The notes under the pieces are model-generated. The model saw only the letters and a program-made list of their open reading frames with translations, had not been told where the DNA came from and ran no database searches. Position numbers and translations under genes: made by a program. Positions 2,316 to 15,467 of a stretch of 16,139 nucleotides of DNA are shown piece after piece (position 1 is the first letter of the stretch; every line of letters begins with the position of its first letter). Source of the stretch: an uncultured Ruminococcus sp. (GTDB lineage: Bacteria; Bacillota; Clostridia; Oscillospirales; Acutalibacteraceae); assembly GCA_902773265.1 (NCBI GenBank), contig CACYDZ010000149.1, positions 1-16,139 of the forward strand, read 5' to 3'.

Positions 2316-3245
2316 TATTACAAATGGGTGTAACACGCACCCTCTATCCCATTTGATTGGGACTACTTTTCTTAAAATCTGATATGCTCCGTTTAAATCG
2401 GCATTGATTTTTATTCCTCTTGCCGATACAAACAATCCTCTATGTATTCTTCTTGCTTTGTTGTAATTTTCTTTTACAGGTTCTTCACTGTCAATGAAAC
2501 TTGTACCGCTCGTATAGCTTTCTTCGGTCAATATGACTGCTATTCCTTTCGTACTGTATCATTTCAATTAACCTTGCAAAAGGTATCTGAACAAAGTTCT
2601 GATTTACTTTTTTGGAAAGTCTGCTGTTTTGTTTCCACTCTTTGTTTTTGCCTATGACAATCGTATGAATATCGGTTTTTACACAATAATTGATAATGTA
2701 TCGTCTTGTTTTATGCAGACCTGTCTTTATGCGGTATCAGTTTGACTTGCTGAAAAGATACAAAATTTTCTTTCTCCGTAAATTTGGGCGTAATTGTAAA
2801 GCCTTGAAATACTTTCGAAAAATATATTTTTACCTCTCTCAGTTTACAGTTCTGATTTGTCAAAATCAAAATATAATGGCTGTCCTTTTTACGATATTTC
2901 GGCAATCTGGGTTTTCCTCTATATTTTTCCTTATGTTTGCTCCAATCTTTAATACTCACCATAAACGCTTTCCAATTTTTATCAAGCAATCGTAAAATTT
3001 GTTGTGCAGATTTTACTGTCGGCATATTCTGATAATCAGGATATTCTTCATCTGCTTTCAGCATCTTGTCTAAATCTTTGTATTTTATCAATTTTTGATT
3101 TTGGGTAAATTCCTGACAGATAAGATAATTGGCATGGTTGTACAGATTTTTTGATTGTTGGCAAAAATACAATAGCAAAGAAAAGTAAAAATCAGATGAT
3201 TTTATCTTATATTTTTCAGTCCTTGCAACTATCGAATCTCTTCAT
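2304..3245 (-). pseudogene. tnpB: Degraded IS200/IS605-family tnpB (RNA-guided nuclease), internal deletion plus frameshifts
   Basis: Pieces of one TnpB lie in order on the minus strand. The N-terminal part (about 3226-2714) contains SKNLYNHANYLICQEF and the helical region ending near LPKYRKKDS. A middle piece (about 2715-2540) reads LHKTRRYIINYCVKTDIHT, then TIVIGKNKEWKQN and FARLIEMIQY, the RuvC-II neighbourhood. The C-terminal piece (2531-2304) has TEESYTSGTSFID and NADLNGAYQIL, which holds the RuvC-III aspartate. The stretch carrying the RuvC-I motif (usually GIDLGVNN) is missing between the first two pieces, about 100 residues by comparison with usual TnpB. A frameshift near 2550-2565 separates the last two. 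Another near 3235 separates the ATG at 3245 from the body. The protein cannot be an active nuclease. No tnpA is present. Confidence 0.85.
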
Positions 3246-3325: not shown

Positions 3326-4066
3326 TTAATCTCTTCTTTTGCCGAATATTGCCAGAATACGGATAAAGAGGTTGACATAATCCATATAGAGTGATAAAGC
3401 ACTCAGAATACTGGCTTTTTCCAGAAGTTGTGTATCAGCATATTGTAATCTTTGAAATTCTTTTCTGATTTTGAAGTTGTCGAATATGGTAAATCCCATA
3501 AAAATCACGATAACAACAATGTTAATAATCAGGTCATTGAAAGGAGTGCGGATAAAGAAGTAGGAAATCAGGGAATAAATCAGAATGCCGAAAAGACTTA
3601 TCCCGAGAACTGACCCTAATTTTGACATATCCCTTTGAGTAGTCAGACCGATAAGAGCAAGTACAAGATAGATACCTGCGGTAGCGGCAAATACGCCAAT
3701 CACACTGCCAAATTCATACAGAAGCAAAGTAGGGGTTAAAATTATTCCCATATCAGCAGAATAGAGAATAAAAATAATTTTGGCTGCCAGAGGGGGAAGT
3801 TTGTAGACCAGAAATCCTATAATAACCACAAATATAAGACTGGCAATCACACCGCCCATATAAAGTTCAAAGTTATCAGCAATAAAATCCACTACGGATG
3901 CAGATTTCAAGGTCATAAAAAATGAAAGTCCGAAAGTAATACCGAGACCTAAAAACATCCATAAATAAGTTTTAGCGATGTATTCGGAAAAACTGATACC
4001 TTGTGTATAGGTATTACTATAGCTGTTGTAAGATGAGTTGTTAAAAAAGCCGTTTCCGTTGTTCAT
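3326..4066 (-). CDS. Bax inhibitor-1/YccA family membrane protein
   Basis: The 246-aa protein has a polar Asn/Ser/Tyr-rich N-terminus (about 1-20) followed by seven likely membrane helices from about residue 30 to 195, plus a C-terminal hydrophobic stretch. The C-terminus shows the family pattern: SALSLYMDYVNLFIRILAIFG at about 222-242 with the conserved aspartate (about D229), and TIFDNFKI at about 193-200 with another acidic site. Members of this family (TMBIM/BsYetJ) act as pH-sensitive calcium leak channels or modulate membrane proteases. Which applies here cannot be told. AAGGAGG sits 7 nt before the ATG and overlaps the end of the nif3-like gene, 12 nt away, so it is the last gene of the trmK-nif3 operon. 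Confidence 0.88.
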   Translation of the reverse strand: MNNGNGFFNNSSYNSYSNTYTQGISFSEYIAKTYLWMFLGLGITFGLSFFMTLKSASVVDFIADNFELYMGGVIASLIFVVIIGFLVYKLPPLAAKIIFILYSADMGIILTPTLLLYEFGSVIGVFAATAGIYLVLALIGLTTQRDMSKLGSVLGISLFGILIYSLISYFFIRTPFNDLIINIVVIVIFMGFTIFDNFKIRKEFQRLQYADTQLLEKASILSALSLYMDYVNLFIRILAIFGKRRD

Positions 4067-4078
4067 AAGAAAACCTCC

Positions 4079-4843
4079 TTAAACATAGTTGATATAGTCT
4101 GTAAAAGTTTGTGATTTGACAAAAGTAACTTCATCAAAGGCTTTTTGCAGTTTTTCTTTTAAAGGGTTAATCACAACATCTTCTGTTTTATAGTGTCCTG
4201 CGTCAACGACAGTCAGTGGCAACGCATGAGATTCTATAATAAAGTTATGTTTGATTTCTCCTGTCACGAAAGCGTCCGCACCGAGTTCTTTGGCAAGACA
4301 GATATATTCTCCGCAGGCACCGCCTCCGACAGCCACTCTTTTGATATCGTTGGGAATATCTGTATAACGGACACCTTTACAGTCAAGATGTTTCTTGACA
4401 AATTCCGCAAAGCGTCTGGAACTGAAATTTCCCCACCGATAAGGATTTTCAATATCCCCGACAGCTATACCGTCTTTGGTTACGGTAATATTTTCCAGAC
4501 CAAGTTTTTGGGCAAGGTGAAAATTAACACCGTCAGGTGATAAATCAAGATTAGTGTGTGCTGAAATGACATTCAGATTTTTTCTTGCCAGCATATAGGG
4601 CAGAGCGTTACTTTCCAATGATTTTATTGCACGAAAAATCACAGGGTGATGAGTGATAATCAGTTGTGCCTGAATACGGTCTGCTTCTCCAATAACTTCT
4701 TCCGTTACATCAAGCGACAGCAGTACTTTCCTGACATCAGCATTTTTATCTCCGACTAAAATTCCTACATTATCAAAATCCAGTGCAGAAGTAAACGGAG
4801 CAAAACTGTCAATAAAGTCATAGATGTCTTTTACGGTTGTCAT
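4079..4843 (-). CDS. Nif3-like dinuclear metal centre protein (YqfO/GTP cyclohydrolase 1 type 2 family)
   Basis: The 254-aa length and motifs match the compact Nif3 family. IITHHPVIF at about 62-70 supplies two histidine ligands. SAHTNLDLSPDG at about 94-105 supplies an aspartate. VDAGHYKTE at about 213-221 supplies the C-terminal His and Glu. AVGGGACGEYI (about 171-181) and ADAFVTGEIKHN (about 189-200) are typical of the second half. These proteins form toroidal hexamers with a two-metal site. The in vivo substrate is unsettled. The larger insert domain found in some Firmicutes YqfO proteins is absent. The start ATG overlaps the stop of trmK by 4 nt (ATGA), with AAGGAGGG 5-6 nt upstream, so translation is coupled. 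This trmK-nif3 pairing is common in Firmicutes. Confidence 0.9.
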   Translation of the reverse strand: MTTVKDIYDFIDSFAPFTSALDFDNVGILVGDKNADVRKVLLSLDVTEEVIGEADRIQAQLIITHHPVIFRAIKSLESNALPYMLARKNLNVISAHTNLDLSPDGVNFHLAQKLGLENITVTKDGIAVGDIENPYRWGNFSSRRFAEFVKKHLDCKGVRYTDIPNDIKRVAVGGGACGEYICLAKELGADAFVTGEIKHNFIIESHALPLTVVDAGHYKTEDVVINPLKEKLQKAFDEVTFVKSQTFTDYINYV

Positions 4844-5547
4844 AAAATCCCTCCTTTTTCCGCATATGCAAAAATCTGTTCGGCAAAACGGACTTGTTGT
4901 TTTCCTTCCACACTGTCGGGGTCAGCGGATAACATTCCCTTTCCTTTTTTCAAAAGAGCATTTGCGGTTTTGATGAGATATTCATAATTATAAGCAGATT
5001 GTTTCGGATTGATTGCCCCATAATACTTTTGAATTTCGGTAAATTCAGAAAAAAGCCCTGTATAATATACACTCATAACGGTATATAGTTTTCTATCGGC
5101 ACAGGTGCATTGTTCTTCCTGTATGGAAAAGCCATTGCGATAGAGATAATCTCTCAACAGTTCGGCTTTGGTCATAGGCTGTAAAATGAGATGATAGGCA
5201 GGATTTCTGAGCCATTCGGTTTTACGGATAATCTCAGCGATTAATTCTCCGCCCATACCTGCGATAACGATATCATTGATTTCATTTTTCCTTATAGCCG
5301 AAAGTCCGTCAGATAAGCGTGTTTCAATACAATTTTCAAGACCGTATCGGACAATCGTTTTCTTACCGCTTTCCAGCGGTAACGGGTTGATATCCACAGC
5401 AATCGCCTGAGCAATACGCTTATTCTGACACAACCACACCGGCAGATACGCATGGTCTGTACCGACATCGGCAAGTATACTGTTTTCCCTGACAAATTTT
5501 CCACACAGTTGCAGACGATTATCCAGTTTCAGAATACTTTCTCGCAT
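4840..5547 (-). CDS. trmK: TrmK: tRNA (adenine(22)-N1)-methyltransferase
   Basis: TrmK uses S-adenosylmethionine to make m1A22 in bacterial tRNAs. Class I methyltransferase motif I is ILADVGTDHAYLP at about residues 24-36, followed by AIAVDINPLPLE, then the family signature DIVIAGMGGELIAEII at about 92-107 and LILQPM near 120. A C-terminal helical region follows, as in known TrmK. The total is 235 aa from the ATG at 5547. An in-frame ATG at 5559 abuts AAGGAG (5560-5565) with no spacing, so it is unlikely to be the start. The ATG at 5547 has a 12-nt spacing, which is long but workable. The ribosome binding site follows directly on the T-tract of a terminator, so expression probably depends on read-through. 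Confidence 0.92.
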   Translation of the reverse strand: MRESILKLDNRLQLCGKFVRENSILADVGTDHAYLPVWLCQNKRIAQAIAVDINPLPLESGKKTIVRYGLENCIETRLSDGLSAIRKNEINDIVIAGMGGELIAEIIRKTEWLRNPAYHLILQPMTKAELLRDYLYRNGFSIQEEQCTCADRKLYTVMSVYYTGLFSEFTEIQKYYGAINPKQSAYNYEYLIKTANALLKKGKGMLSADPDSVEGKQQVRFAEQIFAYAEKGGIL

Positions 5548-5565
5548 AAAAACACCCATCTCCTT

Positions 5566-5603
5566 AAAAAAACAGTGATTAGCACCACAAAAGCACTAAT
5601 CAC
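5566..5603 (-). terminator. Rho-independent terminator between the DUF1858 gene and trmK
   Basis: On the minus strand GTGATTAG (5603-5596) and CTAATCAC (5582-5575) form an 8-bp stem around a 13-nt loop, followed by TGTTTTTTT. It lies about 33 nt after the stop codon of the DUF1858 gene. The T-run leads straight into the AAGGAG of trmK, leaving no room for a separate trmK promoter. It therefore looks like a partial terminator or attenuator inside a transcription unit. Confidence 0.78.
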
Positions 5604-5636
5604 CGGAAATTCCCTCACGATATCAGCAGGCAAAAA

Positions 5637-5834
5637 TTATTTCTTAGTTATTGCACTGATTTTGGAAAGAATGTCGTTGACATCAACACCATGTGCTTTG
5701 CAGGCATCACCAATGCTTTCGCCTCTGGAAGCAGGACAGCCTAAGCAGTGCATACCCATAGACATCAGAATAGGAGCTACTGCAGGTGCTTGTTTGAGAA
5801 CATCGCCGATTAAAGTATCTTTGTTAATTTCCAT
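5637..5834 (-). CDS. DUF1858 domain protein (hybrid-cluster-protein-associated redox disulfide family)
   Basis: This small 65-aa protein starts MEINKDTLIGDVLK and carries GMHCLGCPASRGESIGDACK at about 27-46. The CxxC (C30, C33) and a third cysteine (C45) are the hallmark of the DUF1858/TIGR03980 redox-disulfide family, often found near hydroxylamine reductase or other redox proteins. The exact role is unknown. No hcp gene is next to it here. The ATG at 5834 has GGAGG about 9-10 nt upstream. A longer in-frame extension to 5888 has no such site and is rejected. A terminator follows the gene. Confidence 0.87.
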   Translation of the reverse strand: MEINKDTLIGDVLKQAPAVAPILMSMGMHCLGCPASRGESIGDACKAHGVDVNDILSKISAITKK

Positions 5835-5984
5835 GATAAAAAACCTCCGTATCAATAATTTGAGATTATTATACCCTACTTTTTCCAAAAATTCAACAAC
5901 TTTACAAAATATTTACAATAAGGTTAAAGGTTGTCCCCTCAAAAATAAAATTGCTATGAGCGATTTTTCCTGCCGAAAAAGGCT

Positions 5985-6032
5985 ATGTCTTTCACTTTTT
6001 TGAAAAAAGTGGACAAAAAACTTTTAAGTGTC
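5985..6032 (-). terminator. Stem-loop belonging to the dispersed repeat family, downstream of the kinase-nuclease gene
   Basis: CACTTTTTT (5993-6001) and AAAAAAGTG (6003-6011) form a 9-bp AT-rich stem. On the minus strand it is preceded by AAAAGTTTTTTGTCC, the same phrase that ends the 1787-2212 element. It lies 20-70 nt past the stop of the 1400-aa gene and may act as its transcription end, though the stem is weak. It may simply be another repeat copy. Confidence 0.5.
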
Positions 6033-6052
6033 ATAGTTTGATGATGAGCAAC

Positions 6053-9000
6053 TCAATCATTATTGACACCGTACTCTCTGTTGATGATATGCAACAATGT
6101 ATTACCTATATTTTCAATTTCTTCAGGTTTCCGGATGGTCACGACATTCATCTTATCCCCGCGTATGCATTGCATACTATTGACAGGAACAGTATCATAG
6201 AAACTTTTTTCCTGTGTATCAGCAATCAGAACAGCAGTGGCATTGATACCGAATTTATTTTTTAATTCAGCAATTTTGTAGTAATAATTCTGTTGGATAT
6301 GGGAACATGCCTTACATTCAACAAAGAGGGAAGAGAAATTTTTAGTGATGATACAATCAAATTCACTTTTCACTTTTGTACCTTCCCAGTTGACTTCGTA
6401 ATTACAAACAACATCATCGAATTGACCAAGTTCCTTTACTTTATGATAAGTATAGATTTCCAGCATTTTACCGGAAGTAGTCAGTAATTCTTTGATTTTT
6501 TTACTGGCGTAAGTAAAGCTGAATGTATCTTCCGAAACAGAAATAAAATTAATAATATATTGCATTTCTTTAAAAAATGTCATCAGTTCTATAAGGTCTG
6601 TTTTTTGGCTTTCATTGAATTTTACCTGCGAAACAACAAGATTATCAAAGGCAATAATGACCGTATGTTCAATAGTATTAGCATAAGCCGTGATGTCATC
6701 TGTGTTCATCAAAGCATATACATTGGAAAATAATTTATCATATTCCTCACGATAATGGTAACAGTCGACTATGGTGATTTTACAGGAATCTGTCGTATAG
6801 GTTTCCATACAGCTTTCATTTTCCAAAATTTTATTTTTTTTCAGAAATGACAGAATTTTATTCACGCTTCTGTTACATGAAACAGGCAGAATATAGGAAT
6901 AGGTCTGTGCCTGTGTATCTTTTCTCCTTGCTACCCTGCTGAACGAAGCGATGATGTCATTTGTTGAAGCATATCTTTTAAGTGTATCGCATAGAGCTTT
7001 CCAGACAGAGTTCTTATTCTGATATTTTCTCCAGAGTTTTTTATAATCCTGAAAAAATTCAGGATTATTACTGCTTTCACTGGCAGAACATTGGAGTGCC
7101 ATCATATCCGATACTGTAATACTTGGAAATTTGATAATATAGTTAAGCATATCACAGTTGAATAAATCTTCAAATTTCATCGTATGGGAAGTAAAGCGGT
7201 AGCTGGAAAATTCATTGTACGCTGGTGTTATTTGTAACATATAAGAAAGACTTGTCCTGTTTTTTTCCATAGCAAAGAAATTTTTTCCTATGCGGCGTTG
7301 TTTGAGATAAGTAATTAATTTTGTCGGAACATCTGCTATCTGACTGACCGCCATAAAATTTACTAAGCGAATCCGTCCCTTTCCTGTTTCTTTAATTTCA
7401 TTCTCCAGATTTTCAATGACAATGTTTTTTAATGCTTCAGTATAAATCAGAACGAAATCCACAACCGTTCTGAATTTTTTCTTATTCATATAGGTAATCA
7501 CGCCTGAAAGTGACTCCAGAAATTTGCTGATATCCTGCTTTTGTTCGAATAAGACAATGTACAGAATTTTTTTAGGATTTATCACAGTTGCCACAGCGAC
7601 ATTACCAAAAATCTCATTTTTTCCCACACTTGCATAGGGAATAACCAGATAGGAATTTTCGCTGTAAGTCAGAATAAAAGGAATATGATTGATAAATTCC
7701 ACATCGTTTTGTTTCCAGATTTGATACTCCATACTTGCCAAAACAGGATAGAAAATGGTTTCAAATGCTTTAACCTGTTTCTCAACAGCTTCTTGGCTAT
7801 CTTTCGGCAAAGACTTGAGACTGCTCAGAAATGATTGCTTTAAACCTTTGTATAAATAAACTTTTTCTTTTTTTCTCTCTTTTAAAGAGGTTTCATCTCT
7901 ATTGGCGATTTCCTTTATACAAGTGAACCACTCTTGAAAAGTAATCATTGCCTCTTTATGACCTTCTATAAGAGTACGAATACCGAAAATAATATTTCCT
8001 GATAATAAGTTCTGTATCCGAACTGTTTCTGTTTTACGCTTATACATACGGTGTAGCTCAACAGACATACGGTCTAAATCATCTAATGCCAAAAGTTCTT
8101 TGTTTGAAGCGGTGTCCCATTTTTCATAATTATTGACAGTATATTCTTCAGCTAGTTTTTGGTCAGGTCTGCTTTTCAGAATACAGATATGTTTTTTATG
8201 CCGTTCGTCCCTTGTCATTCCGTAAGCACAGTCTTCAAGATTCTGTATACTCTGCCAGCCAAGACAGAGTTTTTCAGTAACCCATCGGCGATGTTCAATC
8301 CAGATAAGTTCATTTTTGACGGATAAATTAGCTGTATTGGTAATAATGTCTTTAACCTGACGGGCAGCCTCCTCAAAACTGACGGTGCTTAAATCAATGC
8401 CTATACTGTAAAGTTTATATTTCAATGATAATACATTGGAAACACACGAGTCATAGCAATATGCTTTTTGGAAATCGGCTTTTATCTCTTTGTAATCCAC
8501 ATTGAGATTTTTTTCCCATACCAGATGAGTATTGAATGCCATTCTTTCAATTTCGGGATAAAAGGCAGATTTTCGGATATTCCGATTGACATATACAGGG
8601 TAAAGAGCAGAAACGGATTTATCAGAATCCTGAATATTTTTGCAGACATAATTGATAGCACAATCTGTCTTCAATACTTTCGTTGCTTTCTGACAGACCT
8701 TTGCCATAGCCAGATTCAAATTATCTTCTTCAAGTGCAATAAAGATATAGTGCAGAGGTTTGTTATTATATTGTTGTTGGATAATCTTCTGTATAACATT
8801 TGAATTGACCACAAAATTGTTGTACTCCAATTCTGCGGTCATAAATATAATATCGCCGTAGGTATTACTATTTCCCTGCAAAGAACCGTCTATATTGAAA
8901 AAGTCTGCCAGTTGCGGTCTTTCTGATAAATAAATCTCTTTGTCCGTTTCATCATCAGATATAACTGTAATCTGTAATTTCTTGTTTCTCATCTGTCCGT

Positions 9001-10255
9001 TTTGTAGACAGGCATCTGAAAATTTCTGCCCGTAATTTCCAAAACCTATAATCAGAACATTGATGTTTTCTTCCTCATCAGAACTGTACTGATATAGTGG
9101 ATATTCATATAAATGGTACTGAATAGCCAAAAAGGAATTTTTTTCTTTATTGGTATCCAGAGATTTTTCTGCATCGGCCAGAATCCATTTTTCTTTGGAA
9201 AGATTTTTTCGGGCAATATCAGAAGGTAACACATAGTAAAGTGCTTTTTCCAAATCATTTTGCAATTCTTCACAATTAGTATAGCGGTATATTCTTTCAC
9301 AAAGACACTTCCTCAGTATTCTGGTAAGGATATTTCTCAGTCTGGGATGGGAATTTGCTTCTGATGCTTTAATCAGTCTGGATTCATCAACCATTTCATG
9401 CAGTCTGTCATAATAATCACTGTTGTAAAGAAAGCCGTTCTTTTCGGTTTCGTTGGTGACAATAATCGCATGAAACAGAGTAGCCCCGATAGAATAGATA
9501 TCCGTCTTGTTGCTGACCGTTTTATATCCTGCTTCAGGCTCAATATATCCCTCTGTACCTAACTCTCTTGATTTGCCATAGACGGAACATATCGAATTGA
9601 TATCGAACAACGATAAGGTTTGTGTCAGAGTTTCGTTTCCACGATGGATAAAGCCAAAATTACAGGGATTGATATCGCAATGTACCATCTCTGCCATATG
9701 TAATGCACAGATACATTTAGTCAGAGATTCAATCGCTGTCAGCACAGTCAGTAGTTTATGTTCAGGATTATTTTGGGGATGTTTGTGAATTTCATGACAA
9801 ATCTTATCAAAAGTTTCTACTTTAGAATCAGGGGTCCATATATAGACAGTACTTGTGTCTGAACTGTTTTCATCACAGCCATAGTATATTTCAAATGACG
9901 GAATAAAAGTAGCCAAATCTTCATTTTGTCCGTTGCGTTTTGTTTCCATAAGCATTTTGTATGGTTCGATATACTCTTCTTTAGCTTTTTTAAACGCTTC
10001 CAGCATATCGCCAAACTCCGCTGAATGTATTAATTGTCCGTTTTCCATTCTTTCCAGAGCATAGTTTACCAAAGGGTAAAACTCTTTTAAAATGCCTCTG
10101 CTGCCACCCTCTTCATAATAAGCCTCATAGCATACAGAAAAAGCTCCTTCTCCTTTGTTCAGCTTGTTGACGATAATGAATCTCCTTGAAAATATTTCTC
10201 CATTACTCTTTCCATAAAGGAGAATGGATTTTTTTAGATATTGACGCTTTTTCAT
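6053..10255 (-). CDS. Giant multidomain protein: Ser/Thr kinase-like + Rossmann/TrkA-like + RyR-like + unknown region + Card1/DUF1887-like PD-(D/E)xK nuclease
   Basis: The 1400-aa protein shows no signal peptide or membrane helix, so it is probably cytoplasmic. Residues about 24-345 are kinase-like: glycine-rich loop GEGAFS (35-40), likely ATP-binding lysine K57 in ILKEF, catalytic loop HCDINPCN (192-199), metal aspartate D218 in LFDIN, GYIEPE (236-241) and TDIYSIGATLF (251-261). The usual lysine of DxKPxN is Asn here, and DFG reads DIN. Residues about 397-525 start with INVLIIGFGNYG, a Rossmann dinucleotide-binding glycine motif like TrkA-N. Residues about 645-730 look like a RyR domain: WIEHRRW, then GW, a TRDERHKKHICI stretch and a closing DDLDR. 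About 745-1100 I do not recognise. The C-terminus (about 1258-1350) fits a Card1-type nuclease: GKMLEIYTY, D1300, FVECK (E1313, K1315) and KIAELKNKFG. The start overlaps the phosphatase stop by 4 nt. Domain calls are by eye: the kinase and nuclease are the firmest, RyR and Rossmann good. Confidence 0.82.
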   Translation of the reverse strand: MKKRQYLKKSILLYGKSNGEIFSRRFIIVNKLNKGEGAFSVCYEAYYEEGGSRGILKEFYPLVNYALERMENGQLIHSAEFGDMLEAFKKAKEEYIEPYKMLMETKRNGQNEDLATFIPSFEIYYGCDENSSDTSTVYIWTPDSKVETFDKICHEIHKHPQNNPEHKLLTVLTAIESLTKCICALHMAEMVHCDINPCNFGFIHRGNETLTQTLSLFDINSICSVYGKSRELGTEGYIEPEAGYKTVSNKTDIYSIGATLFHAIIVTNETEKNGFLYNSDYYDRLHEMVDESRLIKASEANSHPRLRNILTRILRKCLCERIYRYTNCEELQNDLEKALYYVLPSDIARKNLSKEKWILADAEKSLDTNKEKNSFLAIQYHLYEYPLYQYSSDEEENINVLIIGFGNYGQKFSDACLQNGQMRNKKLQITVISDDETDKEIYLSERPQLADFFNIDGSLQGNSNTYGDIIFMTAELEYNNFVVNSNVIQKIIQQQYNNKPLHYIFIALEEDNLNLAMAKVCQKATKVLKTDCAINYVCKNIQDSDKSVSALYPVYVNRNIRKSAFYPEIERMAFNTHLVWEKNLNVDYKEIKADFQKAYCYDSCVSNVLSLKYKLYSIGIDLSTVSFEEAARQVKDIITNTANLSVKNELIWIEHRRWVTEKLCLGWQSIQNLEDCAYGMTRDERHKKHICILKSRPDQKLAEEYTVNNYEKWDTASNKELLALDDLDRMSVELHRMYKRKTETVRIQNLLSGNIIFGIRTLIEGHKEAMITFQEWFTCIKEIANRDETSLKERKKEKVYLYKGLKQSFLSSLKSLPKDSQEAVEKQVKAFETIFYPVLASMEYQIWKQNDVEFINHIPFILTYSENSYLVIPYASVGKNEIFGNVAVATVINPKKILYIVLFEQKQDISKFLESLSGVITYMNKKKFRTVVDFVLIYTEALKNIVIENLENEIKETGKGRIRLVNFMAVSQIADVPTKLITYLKQRRIGKNFFAMEKNRTSLSYMLQITPAYNEFSSYRFTSHTMKFEDLFNCDMLNYIIKFPSITVSDMMALQCSASESSNNPEFFQDYKKLWRKYQNKNSVWKALCDTLKRYASTNDIIASFSRVARRKDTQAQTYSYILPVSCNRSVNKILSFLKKNKILENESCMETYTTDSCKITIVDCYHYREEYDKLFSNVYALMNTDDITAYANTIEHTVIIAFDNLVVSQVKFNESQKTDLIELMTFFKEMQYIINFISVSEDTFSFTYASKKIKELLTTSGKMLEIYTYHKVKELGQFDDVVCNYEVNWEGTKVKSEFDCIITKNFSSLFVECKACSHIQQNYYYKIAELKNKFGINATAVLIADTQEKSFYDTVPVNSMQCIRGDKMNVVTIRKPEEIENIGNTLLHIINREYGVNND

Positions 10256-10962
10256 GAGATTCTTTTTCTCCTTTCAATTTGTCTGATATTCAAAGAAATA
10301 AAACTACAATCGTCAGAACATTTTTTGCCGGTAAAAAATGTTTTCAGCCTGTCATATTCGTTATTGACAAGCAAATTGAAAATTTCAGGTTTCATTCTGC
10401 TTTTATTGAACATTTGTTTCCATGCACCGTTAGAACAAATGACAACAGAATCTACAAATTCTATATCAAACATCCGAACAGATACCATTTTATAGGCATT
10501 TATGGTTGTGGTAACATAACCATTTTTACTTTCTGCCGGCATAGACAAAATACGGCATTTCCCTCTGCCACTTGCCATAATCATACCATCGCCAAGATTG
10601 AAACACAACATTCGGTTTCTCTTCTTGTCTATCAGAACGCTGGCAACTGTACTGGAATATTCTTCGATATTTTCAGCAGTATTTTCTGCACATTTTTTCA
10701 GTTCAAAAAGAATATGCGAAAGAACCAATTGGGCAACTTGTTCCTGCTCAAATTCCAAAAAATAATCTCCTTTTTTCAACAACAGATTGGTAATGGCTCC
10801 ACTGGCGATTTCTGCACCGCTTTTAGCTTCCTTGCACCCCGAAACACCATCGGCCAAAGAAATCACACAGAATTGCTTGTTTCGGGCATGACGGACAACA
10901 TCTTGATTTTCAGTGTTGCTGTCTATATAATACAGACCCGTCTGACTTAATTTTTTTACCAT
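10252..10962 (-). CDS. PP2C-family protein phosphatase (short PP2C_2 type)
   Basis: This 236-aa metal-dependent Ser/Thr phosphatase is predicted to remove phosphates placed by the kinase encoded next to it. The PP2C motifs occur in order: NQD (19-21), SLADGVSG (35-42, metal aspartate D38), SSTVASVLI (103-111), FNLGDG (121-126), VVICSNG (173-179) and a closing SDDCSFI (216-222, D218). In most PP2Cs the VVICSNG site is SDG. Here the metal-binding Asp is Asn, which could lower activity or change metal use, while the other acidic residues remain. The gene shares ATGA with the kinase-nuclease gene, implying translational coupling and a fixed ratio of the two products. The ribosome binding site is modest (GAGAT, 8 nt before the ATG). 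Confidence 0.87.
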   Translation of the reverse strand: MVKKLSQTGLYYIDSNTENQDVVRHARNKQFCVISLADGVSGCKEAKSGAEIASGAITNLLLKKGDYFLEFEQEQVAQLVLSHILFELKKCAENTAENIEEYSSTVASVLIDKKRNRMLCFNLGDGMIMASGRGKCRILSMPAESKNGYVTTTINAYKMVSVRMFDIEFVDSVVICSNGAWKQMFNKSRMKPEIFNLLVNNEYDRLKTFFTGKKCSDDCSFISLNIRQIERRKRIS

Positions 10963-11008
10963 TATATATCATCTCATTTCTTTACCGACAATCATATACC
11001 ATACTGTG

Positions 11009-11045
11009 ACATATTCCCATCACCGATGCTTTGCTTAGAATATGT
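11009..11045. promoter_or_regulatory. Inverted repeat ACATATTC/GAATATGT in the phosphatase leader, possible operator
   Basis: Two 8-bp arms, perfect complements, lie at 11009-11016 and 11038-11045, 21 bp apart and about 47-83 bp upstream of the phosphatase ATG. The centre-to-centre spacing of about 29 bp and the position suit either an operator for a dimeric regulator or a leader stem. The function is inferred only from position. Confidence 0.35.
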
Positions 11046-11072
11046 TTACGGTGGCATTTCAATTTCGGTCGT

Positions 11073-11118
11073 GATTTGTCTGACAGCAAGGATAAGTCCA
11101 TTTTCTGACAGACAAATC
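11073..11118. repeat. 14-bp inverted repeat (one mismatch) in the phosphatase leader
   Basis: GATTTGTCTGACAG (11073-11086) pairs with CTGACAGACAAATC (11105-11118), with one internal mismatch and an 18-nt loop. On the plus strand TTTTAT follows, but no plus-strand gene ends here. It is therefore either a remnant or a regulatory stem of the minus-strand leader. Confidence 0.65.
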
Positions 11119-11406
11119 TTTTATATCACTTATATCACCTTTATTCTGAAGAATAACATAAATCTAGGATTATAGTTGATAATATTCAGCCTACGGCTGA
11201 AAGGCAATTCATACTGTTGCCGATAGAGATGGAAAACTTCTTGTCCGTTAAGTTAAACTCCTGCTTATTTTTCCCTCAAAAAATGAATAAAAACTTTCAA
11301 AGTTTACGGCATTTGGATTGATTACCAGACTATCAGTTATACAATTAAACATTTTAGGGTCAAGGGACAAAGCCTTTTAACAGATAAAAATTTCCGAAAA
11401 ATTCAC

Positions 11407-11434
11407 CTCTGAAAATTTTGATAAATTCTCAGAG
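11407..11434 (-). terminator. Stem-loop overlapping the stop codon of the 593-aa gene
   Basis: CTCTGAAAATTT (11407-11418) pairs with AAATTCTCAGAG (11423-11434) around TGAT. One position is A opposite C in the plus-strand sequence, a G-U pair in the minus-strand RNA. On the minus strand GTGAATTTTT follows, giving a modest U-tract. It would end the 13813-11429 transcription unit and separate it from the phosphatase/kinase locus. Confidence 0.6.
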
Positions 11435-13210
11435 ATTAATATAGGCATATGAAGAAAAAGCAACCAGTACATCAAAAATATTTCTTTTACTGAATTTCTG
11501 ATAATAGGCTTCTTCTAATTTTTTGTCAATTCCTTCTTTGAATTTCTCAAACAGTTCGGCAAAGTTCTTCCAGTTTTTTTCTCTGGTATGACGGGCATTA
11601 AAGTAATAATAATACGCAACTATCATCGAAGTACGGGTAACTTTTTCTGCTGAAGAAATATATAAGGCTTTGGTCTTTGTCTTAGAAAGTTTTTTCCACT
11701 CTTCATTGTGGTTGTTGCTACCGATTGTTTCTTTAACAGTATGCCCCATAAATCTGTTCATTTGCTGAAGAAAAGTGACGAACTGGTTAAATTCTTCCTG
11801 AGAAACATTTTCCCACGAGTTGCTGATATTATATCCCTTTTTGCTGAACATAGCAACATCAGTAAACCAAAGACCATAGTTGCACTGTTCAAGGATAATC
11901 TCATCGATTTCCGTTAATTTCTTGATAATAGACTTGTATGCTTTGAAAGCGGATTCCTGTTTTGTTTCCATCTGTATTTGAGGGGTTATCAAATCTATTA
12001 CCCTTCCGTCCAGTTTGATATAGCTTTTTTTATAGGTATCGCAATTATAATTGTTACAGATGAAATCTTCAAATTGTTCTTCGTCAAGACTGAATATGTC
12101 TTCGCTGAACAGCTTTTTGCTGTCTGCCTTTTGAAATAACTCCCTGTAATGAGCTGTTCCACCCGCTTTTTTTGTGTCGATATGCCCCTTTTTGAACTGC
12201 TTTTTACTCACTTTTTTAATCATTTGTTCCGATAACCTGATTTTATCCTGTCTGCTACAATCTTTGGCAATATAATACAGATATATCATTTCGGCAAAAT
12301 TTTTATAATTAATTCCCTGTCCCGATGGGTCAAGTTCATATTCACATAGATTTCCTGTATATGCCTTGGAAATAAATCGGATAAGATTATTGGTATAATA
12401 ATCACGAAACAGATTTGTTTCTATATCCGTCTTGAAAATATCTGCACAAACATCCGCACTATCATCATTTTGTGTGTCATGCAAAGCGTAGGTCATTCCA
12501 TAAACCATAGCAAACAAATACAGACTTTTTTTGGTTTTCCCATTCGTATAGAATTGTCCGATTGCCAAATCATTAACCAATTTCAACAATCCGAATTTAC
12601 CGTTCGGCTTTTTTTGCGGTTTTGTGGCTGTTTTCAGTAACTCGAATACGGTATCATCAAGATATGTCAGAATTTCTGCCTCCGACAACTCCGTTTTTTC
12701 TTCATTTTCTGAAACGATATGAGCTACTTTATGTTTTACAAATTTAATGATTTCCATTTTTCCGCCGAAACCTGCATCGGAGAGATAATTTCCGTATTTT
12801 ATGAACTGTTTCAGAATTCTGATACGCAAGGTATCATTATTCCAGCCATCTTTATCTGAACAAAGTCTGTCAACCATACGCTTCATATAGTCTTCGGGAG
12901 AGGGATATTCTTTATACAACAAATATACCTTGAACAGTAGTTTATCTTCCAGTTGCGAAAATGTGGGAATATCTGAATGATATACTAAATTTTTATAATA
13001 CTCATAACTCATTCGGGGCTTGTATTCTATTTGGCAATCGTCAAATAAATAATAGAGTTCTTTCAATATACTTGGTTTGCTAGATTTGTTCCATGATTTA
13101 TATAACTCTTCCAGTTTGTATTTGAATTCGTCAATGCAATGAAAAGACCTGAATTCTTCTTTCAGGTTGTCCATAGCAGTTTCAATTTTTCTTGTAATTG
13201 TTATTTCCAT
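11429..13210 (-). CDS. Unrecognised 593-aa, mostly helical protein
   Basis: I do not recognise the family. The protein is rich in Lys, Glu, Tyr and Phe, with long amphipathic stretches, few glycines and no signal peptide or convincing membrane helix, which suggests a soluble all-alpha fold. Visible landmarks include a very basic segment around 331-348 (KKVSKKQFKKGHIDTKK), an acidic segment HDTQNDDSADVCAD near 244-257, a short polar motif LDPSGQG near 293-299, and repeated aromatic runs such as YYYYFNARH near 533-541. None is a known catalytic signature to me. The start ATG at 13210 has AAGGAG 9 nt upstream. The gene follows the PGDYG-like gene by 60 nt and shares its promoter. A terminator-like stem covers its stop. 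An effector or scaffold in an accessory island is possible, but function is unknown. Confidence 0.8.
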   Translation of the reverse strand: MEITITRKIETAMDNLKEEFRSFHCIDEFKYKLEELYKSWNKSSKPSILKELYYLFDDCQIEYKPRMSYEYYKNLVYHSDIPTFSQLEDKLLFKVYLLYKEYPSPEDYMKRMVDRLCSDKDGWNNDTLRIRILKQFIKYGNYLSDAGFGGKMEIIKFVKHKVAHIVSENEEKTELSEAEILTYLDDTVFELLKTATKPQKKPNGKFGLLKLVNDLAIGQFYTNGKTKKSLYLFAMVYGMTYALHDTQNDDSADVCADIFKTDIETNLFRDYYTNNLIRFISKAYTGNLCEYELDPSGQGINYKNFAEMIYLYYIAKDCSRQDKIRLSEQMIKKVSKKQFKKGHIDTKKAGGTAHYRELFQKADSKKLFSEDIFSLDEEQFEDFICNNYNCDTYKKSYIKLDGRVIDLITPQIQMETKQESAFKAYKSIIKKLTEIDEIILEQCNYGLWFTDVAMFSKKGYNISNSWENVSQEEFNQFVTFLQQMNRFMGHTVKETIGSNNHNEEWKKLSKTKTKALYISSAEKVTRTSMIVAYYYYFNARHTREKNWKNFAELFEKFKEGIDKKLEEAYYQKFSKRNIFDVLVAFSSYAYINL

Positions 13211-13270: not shown

Positions 13271-13813
13271 TTATCCTTCAAATGCCTTGTACAGTTTATT
13301 AAATATTTCTCCATTGACAATCCTTCCGTAATCTTCAAAATTCGGCTGATATTTACTATCTATCAGTCTTGTCGCTACAAGCACATAATCTCCCTGACCG
13401 TGACTTATACTTTCTCTGTTTCCTTTCAATATAGCTTTTTCGCCGTAATCTACCTCAAGTGTAAATTTCGTATCAAGCGGTATCCTTATACCTGCATACA
13501 CAGTGTCGGTTTCTACTGTATCCACCTCTTTAGGTTCTAATGTAACAGACGATGGATTTACATTATATTTTTTTACAGCACTTTCGCCTATCGGCCACAT
13601 CTCGCCTGCGAGACCTGTTACCACATAGCCTTTGTCTCCAACTTTTTCGTAGGAATCTTCCAGACAATTATAAACTACTCCTGCTTTGTCTGGTACATTA
13701 TATATCTGAGAGGAACTGGCAAGCTGTATTTTTGCTTTATAAGATTTGTTGGTATATAACTGCCATTTTTTCGTACTGTCCATTATCCATTTAATATTTT
13801 CACTGATATTCAT
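13271..13813 (-). CDS. PGDYG-like domain protein, 180 aa
   Basis: The protein has two related halves. GDKGYVVTGLAGEMWPIGES at about 59-78 matches the 'GDYLVTGPKGEQWPI'-type segment. About 140-175 has GDYVLVATRL followed by EDYGRIVNGEIFNKLY, close to the 'PGDYG-VVDAEIFARTY' ending of PGDYG proteins. These small domains occur in phages and in bacterial accessory loci. Their biochemistry is not established to my knowledge. The protein is probably cytoplasmic. The ATG at 13813 has AAGGAG 8 nt upstream, and a near-consensus promoter lies 29-57 bp upstream (13842-13870). It is the first gene of a two-gene unit with the 593-aa protein. Confidence 0.72.
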   Translation of the reverse strand: MNISENIKWIMDSTKKWQLYTNKSYKAKIQLASSSQIYNVPDKAGVVYNCLEDSYEKVGDKGYVVTGLAGEMWPIGESAVKKYNVNPSSVTLEPKEVDTVETDTVYAGIRIPLDTKFTLEVDYGEKAILKGNRESISHGQGDYVLVATRLIDSKYQPNFEDYGRIVNGEIFNKLYKAFEG

Positions 13814-13948: not shown

Positions 13949-15022
13949 TTATAATGTTCTTGTCAATGGGTGATAAAAAATAGAGTGAAATTCCTGTGCA
14001 TACATATTGTAAAATTCTTTGTTTTCCCTATTGTCAAATAAAATAGAACATCTCTCGTGTGAAGAGAAAACAGCATTGTAGATGTCTATCTTCAGATAAG
14101 AAATTTTCGGCTTCTTCGTTTGCAGAACACTGTAAGCTATCGGCACGGAAACGGTTTTGACACATACCTGATACGGAAATTCCGCTTTCAGTTTCAGAGC
14201 AAACTCAATACTGTTGTAAATAACCTTTTTTTCGTTGGCAAAGCTGTTGCCGTACATGAATGTTTTCGTCAGTTCTAAAGCGTAGTCACACTCCGGGTCA
14301 AGAAACACCATGTTCAATTTTGGCTTTTTTTCCGACAGCAAAGCATTTATCAATGCTTTTTTGTTGGTTTGTTTAAAAACATCTGCATATTTTTCTATCA
14401 GTGACGGACATGAAATCTGTAACATATTGATTTCTTCTGAACCGTTCAGCAAAACATCAAAATTTTCATCAATTACACTTCTGTTGTATACTCTTACATA
14501 GTTACAATCACTCTTGATGTTATATCTCTTTGTCGGATAAATAATTCTGTCTGTCTGTGCCAGAATAAGCAGTGTGGCAATCGTTTTGGTAACATCTGTA
14601 TTACGGTAAATATTGTTCAATGCATTTTTCTGTGCTTCATTCCACGAAAACTTGTATTTCAAATGAGTTTTCGGGCGGTAAACCATATCTTCGACTAATT
14701 TCTTCAGCTTTTCATCATAGTGCTTCTTGAGAACAGTTTTCAAGTGTTCATAACAGAGATTGTAAATTACCTCCGGAAATGAATCAAGACTGCTTTGTCT
14801 GAGCAGTGTTCCAAACATAGGTACGGTTATATGCTTAGTCATCCACTGATAAGCTGTACGGTGATAATCGGAAACTTCTACTTTTTTTATTCTTAAATTT
14901 GTCTCAATTTCTTCGGTCCAGCCGTACATTGCTATGTAATAATCGTACTGATTGCCAAGTGCCAGCTCTTGCCTGAAATACATTTCAAAAAAATTTTGAT
15001 TGATATTTCTAAATAAACTCAT
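13949..15022 (-). CDS. Unrecognised 357-aa protein with a PLD-like (HKD-less) C-terminal half
   Basis: The N-terminal half (about 1-160) is helical and unassigned. The C-terminal half (about 195-352) has a pattern I associate with inactive phospholipase-D-like sensor domains. It shows INMLQISCPSLIEKY near 198-212, then KLNMVFLDPECDYALELT near 235-252, and a closing SYLKIDIYNAVFS near 308-320, RCSILFD near 324-330 and EFYNMYAQEFHSIFY near 336-350. There are no HxK(x)4D catalytic motifs. Such domains are found as C-terminal modules of bacterial regulators and conflict proteins. The gene follows the membrane protein gene by 43 nt and has AAAGGAG upstream, so the two are likely co-transcribed. 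The similarity is by pattern only and could be a coincidence of fold. Confidence 0.72.
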   Translation of the reverse strand: MSLFRNINQNFFEMYFRQELALGNQYDYYIAMYGWTEEIETNLRIKKVEVSDYHRTAYQWMTKHITVPMFGTLLRQSSLDSFPEVIYNLCYEHLKTVLKKHYDEKLKKLVEDMVYRPKTHLKYKFSWNEAQKNALNNIYRNTDVTKTIATLLILAQTDRIIYPTKRYNIKSDCNYVRVYNRSVIDENFDVLLNGSEEINMLQISCPSLIEKYADVFKQTNKKALINALLSEKKPKLNMVFLDPECDYALELTKTFMYGNSFANEKKVIYNSIEFALKLKAEFPYQVCVKTVSVPIAYSVLQTKKPKISYLKIDIYNAVFSSHERCSILFDNRENKEFYNMYAQEFHSIFYHPLTRTL

Positions 15023-15065: not shown

Positions 15066-15467
15066 TCATGTATATATATTTCCTGAAGTGAATAGGGTAT
15101 AGAAGTTTACCGTCCATAAAAATGGAGTGAACAGGAAAAAAATTGTTGTGATACTGTTGGAACCTGAACACAGCATTTCAAATAACAGCTTACCCCAAAA
15201 AATATCAGAACCTCTGTTTTTGGCAACGGAAAATATTTTGTAACCACCTGTCAGAAAACAAAAACCGACTATAACAAATTTCAATTTGAATGTAGCTATC
15301 AGAACAGTACCTCCACCGATACTGCATACAAAGAGCAGTGCAAGAAATTTTGAAAAGATTTTTTTGTAAGTCTTTTGAACTTTCTCTTTTCTAAAAAATC
15401 CAACCAGTCCTAAAATGAGTTCGCCCATTAATACTACAGGTAATACTTCATATATCATATCAGTCAT
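15066..15467 (-). CDS. Small integral membrane protein, four predicted helices
   Basis: I do not recognise the family of this 133-aa protein. Hydrophobic segments lie at about 7-25, 40-60, 62-80 and 104-128. Basic loops (RKEKVQKTYKK at about 26-36, and KNR near 83) suggest which loops stay in the cytoplasm. There is no enzymatic motif. AAGGAG lies about 9 nt before the ATG. It is the first gene of a unit with the PLD-like protein. A membrane partner next to accessory-looking soluble proteins is a common theme in defence loci, but that is only suggestive here. Confidence 0.72.
   Translation of the reverse strand: MTDMIYEVLPVVLMGELILGLVGFFRKEKVQKTYKKIFSKFLALLFVCSIGGGTVLIATFKLKFVIVGFCFLTGGYKIFSVAKNRGSDIFWGKLLFEMLCSGSNSITTIFFLFTPFLWTVNFYTLFTSGNIYT

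Follow-up and report, generated by a model that had tools for sequence, protein, structure and literature searches.

The window, that is, the whole 16,139-nt stretch of DNA analysed here, carries on its minus strand an operon of three genes, which we call c1, the PP2C gene and c0. It comprises the following features:

11429..13210, minus strand: c1, the third core gene, encoding a 593-aa all-helical orphan protein (c1 cluster found at 42 of 54 other loci; no Pfam family; structure model)
10963..11428, minus strand: 466-bp gap between c1 and the PP2C gene, with a dispersed repeat of ∼68 bp at 11289-11355 and, at 11405-11436, a terminator-like hairpin that overlaps the end of c1
10252..10962, minus strand: PP2C phosphatase, 236 aa (PF13672, E 4.7e-20); D21, D38, D125, D217 and D218 kept, Asn at 178
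6053..10255, minus strand: c0, a 1400-aa kinase / RCK-Rossmann / RyR-like / CARF / PD-(D/E)XK protein (ORF, Pfam, homologues, alignment, fold comparison)
9221..10183, minus strand: Ser/Thr kinase domain, c0 residues about 25-345, with K57, D194, N199 and D218 (kinase matches; PF00069 in relatives)
8573..9142, minus strand: TrkA/RCK-type Rossmann domain, c0 residues about 372-561, with GxGxxG at 404-409
8036..8338, minus strand: RyR-like domain, c0 residues about 640-740, with H655, W658, H689 and D725/D728 (profile comparison, residue counts, weak 6uhi match)
7151..7663, minus strand: CARF domain, c0 residues about 865-1035
6074..6538, minus strand: PD-(D/E)XK nuclease, c0 residues about 1240-1394, with D1300, E1313 and K1315 (PF09002, E 4.9e-11)

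A preliminary description of this DNA had reported two overlapping genes, and this holds: c0 (6053-10255) and the PP2C gene (10252-10962) share the nucleotides ATGA at 10252-10255. Of the other loci, 32 have PP2C as a gene of its own; the same 4-nt overlap was called in 11 of them and a 1-base overlap in five more. The PF13672 match bears out the identification of the smaller gene as a phosphatase. Missing from the two-gene unit of c0 and PP2C proposed there was the third gene, c1.

Kinase matches at residues 131-359 and 171-354 of c0, together with fold comparison, support the kinase region. PF00069 was unmatched in the window's c0 at E values up to 1 in the Pfam scan; it scores over threshold in the relative L005 (E 1.4e-13) and is among the precomputed domains of most of the 120 c0 homologues listed. 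K57, D194, N199 and D218 are invariant in the 39 aligned c0 proteins, as are G404 and G406 of the Rossmann domain, whose fold is likewise supported. At the C-terminus, the suggested resemblance to Card1 is upheld by Card1_endonuc (PF09002), which matches residues 1261-1348 over the Pfam cut-off, and by the fold; D1300, E1313 and K1315 are each retained in 33 of 39 proteins. CARF and PD-(D/E)XK domains in succession give c0 the whole fold of cA4-activated nucleases. The kinase, Rossmann and nuclease domains of the preliminary list stand, but the list had overlooked the CARF domain and the catalytic-loop residue D194. For the RyR-like domain, support is of a different kind. Its fold is a weaker, RyR-like one, and E654, H655, R657 and W658 occur in 39/39 aligned proteins, but a Pfam scan of the window that allowed E values up to 1 did not list it. 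The internal domain carries an insertion; in the c0 homologue L033, PF02026 reaches 13.5 bits, under the family cut-off. Profile comparison of this stretch with the standalone RyR neighbors described below gave P values of 3e-5 to 8.5e-5 (probability 60-73%); six other profiles gave a probability of ≤12.2%. A weak match to 6uhi was also obtained (E 0.044).

In all, c0 has 424 homologues. Of the 120 listed, one of which is the window's own, 119 have all five segments (the exception, P0118, lacks the nuclease), a count that is partly circular, since it used HMMs built from related loci. These data indicate that the architecture of c0 is not due to chance. In alignment A1, five proteins (P0083, P0090, P0107, P0110 and P0117) have lost the nuclease catalytic residues and kept those of the kinase; judging from these residues, they are possibly regulators without nuclease activity. 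No RyR-CARF-kinase architecture is described in the available portions of PMC7159879, PMC8195603 and PMC7016017.

With Card1/Can2/VC1899 (DUF1887), c0 shares the CARF and PD-(D/E)XK fold, and with Card1/Can2 the catalytic D...ExK. Yet Card1/Can2 is a small two-domain protein of about 370 aa, whereas c0, at 1400 aa, has three further domains (kinase, RCK and RyR-like) in front of the nuclease and lies in an operon with c1 and PP2C. In type III CRISPR systems, CARF nucleases are known for reading cyclic oligoadenylate. Card1/Can2 is ancillary to those systems (PMC9704534, accessible part), whereas no CRISPR linkage was found for c0. Independence from CRISPR, as previously proposed, is in line with the distribution of Cas10: there was no match in the window's own genome (76.8% complete), and of 20 Cas10 matches in 49 genomes with c0, none lies on a c0-bearing contig, many of these contigs being short and the assemblies fragmented. 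The Cas10 palm scored over the cut-off in 15 of the 49 genomes and was unmatched in 32. These numbers bear on an alternative that makes CARF the chief sensor. In it, a cyclic oligonucleotide from elsewhere (Cas10 or a CD-NTase) would open the nuclease, and the RyR-like and Rossmann domains would be structural or minor. Both the complete CARF-nuclease fold and the 15 Cas10-positive genomes fit such a scheme, but the 32 genomes with no match, the lack of Cas10 on c0 contigs and the presence of RyR and TIR genes as neighbors instead lead us to consider it unlikely, a judgement that covers the Cas10 half of the scheme.

The c1 family (∼580 aa) is represented at 42 of 54 other loci, and a separate PP2C gene at 32 of 54; these loci were drawn from a genome collection, and several of the contigs are cut short. 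The corresponding cluster counts, 44 for c1 and 34 for PP2C, include the window and the copy in its own genome. There are 455 homologues of c1. No Pfam family was found in 56 members beyond one-off weak matches (best E 0.001), Pfam gave no kinase match in c1, and no PDB match was found to its model, which is confident and all-helical (pLDDT 84.4). The three genes are co-inherited. Across 30 loci, the window among them, c0 proteins diverge from one another in step with c1 (correlation of pairwise distances, r 0.94) and with PP2C (r 0.93), in a comparison without an outgroup control.

c1 is also coupled to the kinase. Among 53 c0 copies with at least 1.5 kb of upstream sequence (the window's copy left out), c1 accompanies 41 of the 44 that have a kinase and none of the 9 that lack it (Fisher P 5e-8). 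The kinase-bearing copies without c1 are L011, in which the catalytic-loop Asn is replaced by Ala, L015, in which the kinase is split, and L022, in which PP2C is fused in front. This distribution suggests that c1, the kinase and often PP2C behave as a single cassette that can be removed from a shared RCK-RyR-CARF-nuclease body. Such a body stands alone: of the 85 homologues found for the L062 protein (query included), 83 are Rossmann-RyR-CARF-nuclease proteins without a kinase. The kinase-less proteins constitute a family of their own. The preliminary gene set captured the kinase-bearing form but not the kinase-less versions, several of which come with TIR genes. The latter are L040, where kinase-less c0 and the TIR gene overlap by 11 bp; L048 and L062, where c0 is accompanied by RyR and then TIR; and L056, where TIR genes flank c0 on both sides. 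In L031, kinase-less c0 follows a DUF4062-like gene with a 4-nt overlap. HMM searches of 1.5 kb downstream and 3.5 kb upstream found no TIR in five of the nine kinase-less copies (L031, L041, L063, L065 and L066), and L041, L063 and L065 have neither TIR nor RyR nearby.

PP2C follows a similar pattern. When copies with 0.8 kb or more of upstream sequence are compared, 34 of the 48 that bear a kinase have PP2C upstream or fused, against none of the 9 that lack one. The expected pairing of PP2C and c0 in other genomes is thus seen, with separate genes at the 32 loci above and a fusion in L022, but it is missing from 14 of 48 kinase-bearing copies, which counts against PP2C being necessary. The L022 fusion (3602-8515, plus strand) is a single ORF of 1637 aa, with PP2C at the N-terminus of the kinase-nuclease protein and degenerate nuclease residues. 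An anti-phage role is described for the KKP (kinase-kinase-phosphatase) operon in the accessible part of PMC11341870. Like KKP, the operon combines a Ser/Thr kinase with a PF13672 PP2C; but KKP has two separate kinases, whereas here a single kinase is fused to a nuclease and the third gene is the orphan c1. On that precedent, the operon could be a KKP-like phosphorylation toxin-antitoxin, with the kinase (with c1) as toxin, PP2C as antitoxin and the nuclease as one of several targets or add-ons. Adjacency of PP2C and kinase, the L022 fusion and the better retention of kinase residues (39/39) than of nuclease residues (33/39) agree with this idea. It accounts poorly for the 14 copies without PP2C and for the kinase-free body of the L062 homologues, and we hold it to be improbable.

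The window's own copy has peculiarities. Its PP2C retains D21, D38, D125, D217 and D218, which, with the Asp usual at position 178, we take to be metal-binding. At 178, a conserved motif position, it has Asn (SNG), whereas 32 of 32 other copies have Asp (the alignment has 34 rows, two of them the window's own gene). The phosphatase may be weakened by N178, which likewise speaks against PP2C being indispensable. In 31 other loci the spacing of c1 and PP2C ranges from –65 to 93 bp (median 21 bp), against 466 bp here, and the ∼68-bp repeat in the window's gap recurs at seven other sites in its genome with 73-84% identity. N178, the gap with its hairpin and repeat, and the lack of RyR and TIR neighbors described below suggest that the window copy may be tuned differently or decaying. 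Upstream of c1, three minus-strand ORFs (13271-13813, 13949-15022 and 15066-15467) gave no Pfam (above chance), PADLOC or PHROG family. A transposase fragment lies at 2711-3178 on the minus strand (phrog_506, E 1.7e-11; TnpB-like by reading), and the genes downstream of the operon look, by reading, like housekeeping genes.

The neighborhood of c0 was assessed from Pfam matches within 10 kb of it in 48 c0-holding genomes. RyR (PF02026) is enriched: 28 of 38 matches fall within this distance versus 0.40 expected, in 26 genomes, and c0 itself is absent from these matches. For TIR_2 (PF13676) the figure is 38 of 150 listed matches versus 1.55 expected, in 18 genomes; because TIR matches cluster, Poisson P values overstate the effect and the genome count is the safer figure. 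No TIR_2 match is among those listed within 10 kb of c0 in 30 of 48 genomes, and no RyR match in 22 of 48. DUF4062 gave 2 of 17 versus 0.17 expected, one of the two being under the cut-off, and the control, N6_Mtase (PF02384), gave 2 of 89 versus 0.91; a single family served to gauge whether defence genes in general are enriched. TIR genes directly adjoin the operon in L013, L024, L040 and L067, and the L067 protein also matches the ThsB profile. In L024, a TIR-NACHT-TPR-RyR protein with a NACHT-type NTPase (3944-7384, plus strand) is encoded directly upstream of c1-PP2C-c0. DUF4062-like proteins adjoin c0 in L008 and L031.

The preliminary description had recognized RyR within c0 but missed the standalone RyR gene of relatives, which scores over the PF02026 cut-off (E 2.8e-33 in L054, 5.9e-32 in L009). 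In L045, for example, the operon reads c1-PP2C-c0-RyR. According to the available part of the RyDEP preprint (PMC13232231), phage RyR proteins cleave or sequester 2'/3'cADPR, and H75, W78, H100 and D117 contact the ligand. With these residues mapped by spacing, without the RyDEP sequence, 17 of 17 standalone RyR neighbors have His, Trp, Thr/Ser and Asp at matching positions, the Thr or Ser standing in all 17 where RyDEP has the His that holds the ligand phosphates. c0 retains H655, W658, H689 and D725 or D728 at ligand-type positions. Pfam found neither a RyR nor a TIR gene among the eight window proteins scanned. Elsewhere in the window's genome (76.8% complete) there was no RyR match, in a search that matched none of 14 controls either, and one TIR_2 match, on contig C295 rather than the window's. 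An NAD- or nucleotide-type ligand fits the RyR and TIR neighbors.

Effectors known from Thoeris and other TIR/ADPR-signal systems are of SLOG, Macro or membrane type. The c0 loci resemble such systems in that 18 of the 48 genomes have TIR genes no farther than 10 kb from c0 (among the matches listed), sometimes directly adjoining, and in having RyR neighbors that belong to a family whose phage members bind or cleave 2'/3'cADPR (PMC13232231, in the part available). The window differs in having no TIR NADase gene and in its effector, a CARF nuclease that carries a kinase itself. DUF4062 is presented in the accessible text of PMC13174449 as a TIR-like NADase, with Swarozyc depleting NAD+ and acting with the phage portal. 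The DUF4062-like proteins of L008 and L031 are the point of likeness; the same text describes no CARF nuclease or kinase partner for Swarozyc.

A search of 394 genomes from the order at E 1e-20 recovered c0 in three, one of them the window's. The window's c0 is 53% identical to those of L007 and L009, labeled Synergistales and Synergistaceae, versus 27-42% to many labeled Clostridia. c0 had no match in phage records, and none was confirmed in viral contigs. VirD4/TraG-like genes, as read from sequence, lie near the operon in L006, L011, L013, L015, L019, L024 and L033 (five also have Clp-protease-like genes), which suggests carriage on conjugative elements. Three c0 proteins (L039, L054 and L055) are 98.7-99.6% identical on contigs labeled Anaeroplasma, [Clostridium] spiroforme and Christensenella, reflecting recent transfer or misbinning. 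Patchy spread and the RyR and TIR neighbors support the conflict-type context originally suggested. RCK/TrkA domains sense ions and nucleotides, and the operon might instead be a stress or housekeeping regulator, unrelated to conflict, whose RCK domain senses NAD, K+ or redox state. The housekeeping-looking genes downstream in the window would suit this, but rarity within the order, the closer identity to Synergistales and Synergistaceae copies and the TIR and RyR neighbors make it very improbable.

This rare and patchy gene set looks like an undescribed immune switch. We give about even chances to the operon being a CRISPR-independent suicide or dormancy effector gated by ligand and phosphorylation. 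The anatomy, the co-inheritance, the coupling of c1 to the kinase, the enriched neighbors and the lack of a CRISPR linkage are observed; the ligand, the order of events, the direction of phospho-control, the nuclease substrate and protection against phage belong to the model that we infer. By analogy with Card1/Can2, its output would be a CARF nuclease that cuts nucleic acids after the CARF dimer opens. In a first layer, the RCK-Rossmann and RyR-like domains would sense a ligand derived from NAD or ADP-ribose, whose source in many relatives would be neighboring NADase-type proteins, TIR or, less often, DUF4062-like; most likely, ligand bound at RCK/RyR and/or CARF would open the nucleic-acid-cutting body. 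In a second layer, the kinase, with c1 and usually PP2C, would set the threshold, c1 probably acting as the sensor of infection or as a substrate. By buffering or breaking down the signal, the standalone RyR would probably play the part that ring nucleases have for cyclic oligoadenylate. Weighing against the model are the lack of TIR and RyR genes in the window, the genomes and kinase-less copies with no such match near c0, the Thr or Ser of the standalone RyRs, the insertion in the internal RyR-like domain, N178 and the copies without PP2C, and the loss of nuclease residues in some lineages. A more specific version, which we put forward tentatively, is a switch that has taken a CARF nuclease out of CRISPR: TIR or DUF4062 proteins would write an NAD-derived signal, RCK/RyR read it and standalone RyR erase it, with the interchangeable c1-PP2C-kinase cassette as second input and c1 as an infection sensor of a new type.

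With 455 homologues and no match found to an established family or fold, the c1 family offers a new target. If the model is correct, a CARF nuclease would be controlled by a protein kinase and possibly respond to NAD-derived signals, and three currencies of immune signaling (NAD products, cyclic oligonucleotides and phosphorylation) would meet in one polypeptide. RyR domains would then act as readers or erasers of ADP-ribose signals in bacterial cells, beyond phages; a similar role for animal ryanodine receptors is left open in the available part of the RyDEP preprint (2026, PMC13232231).
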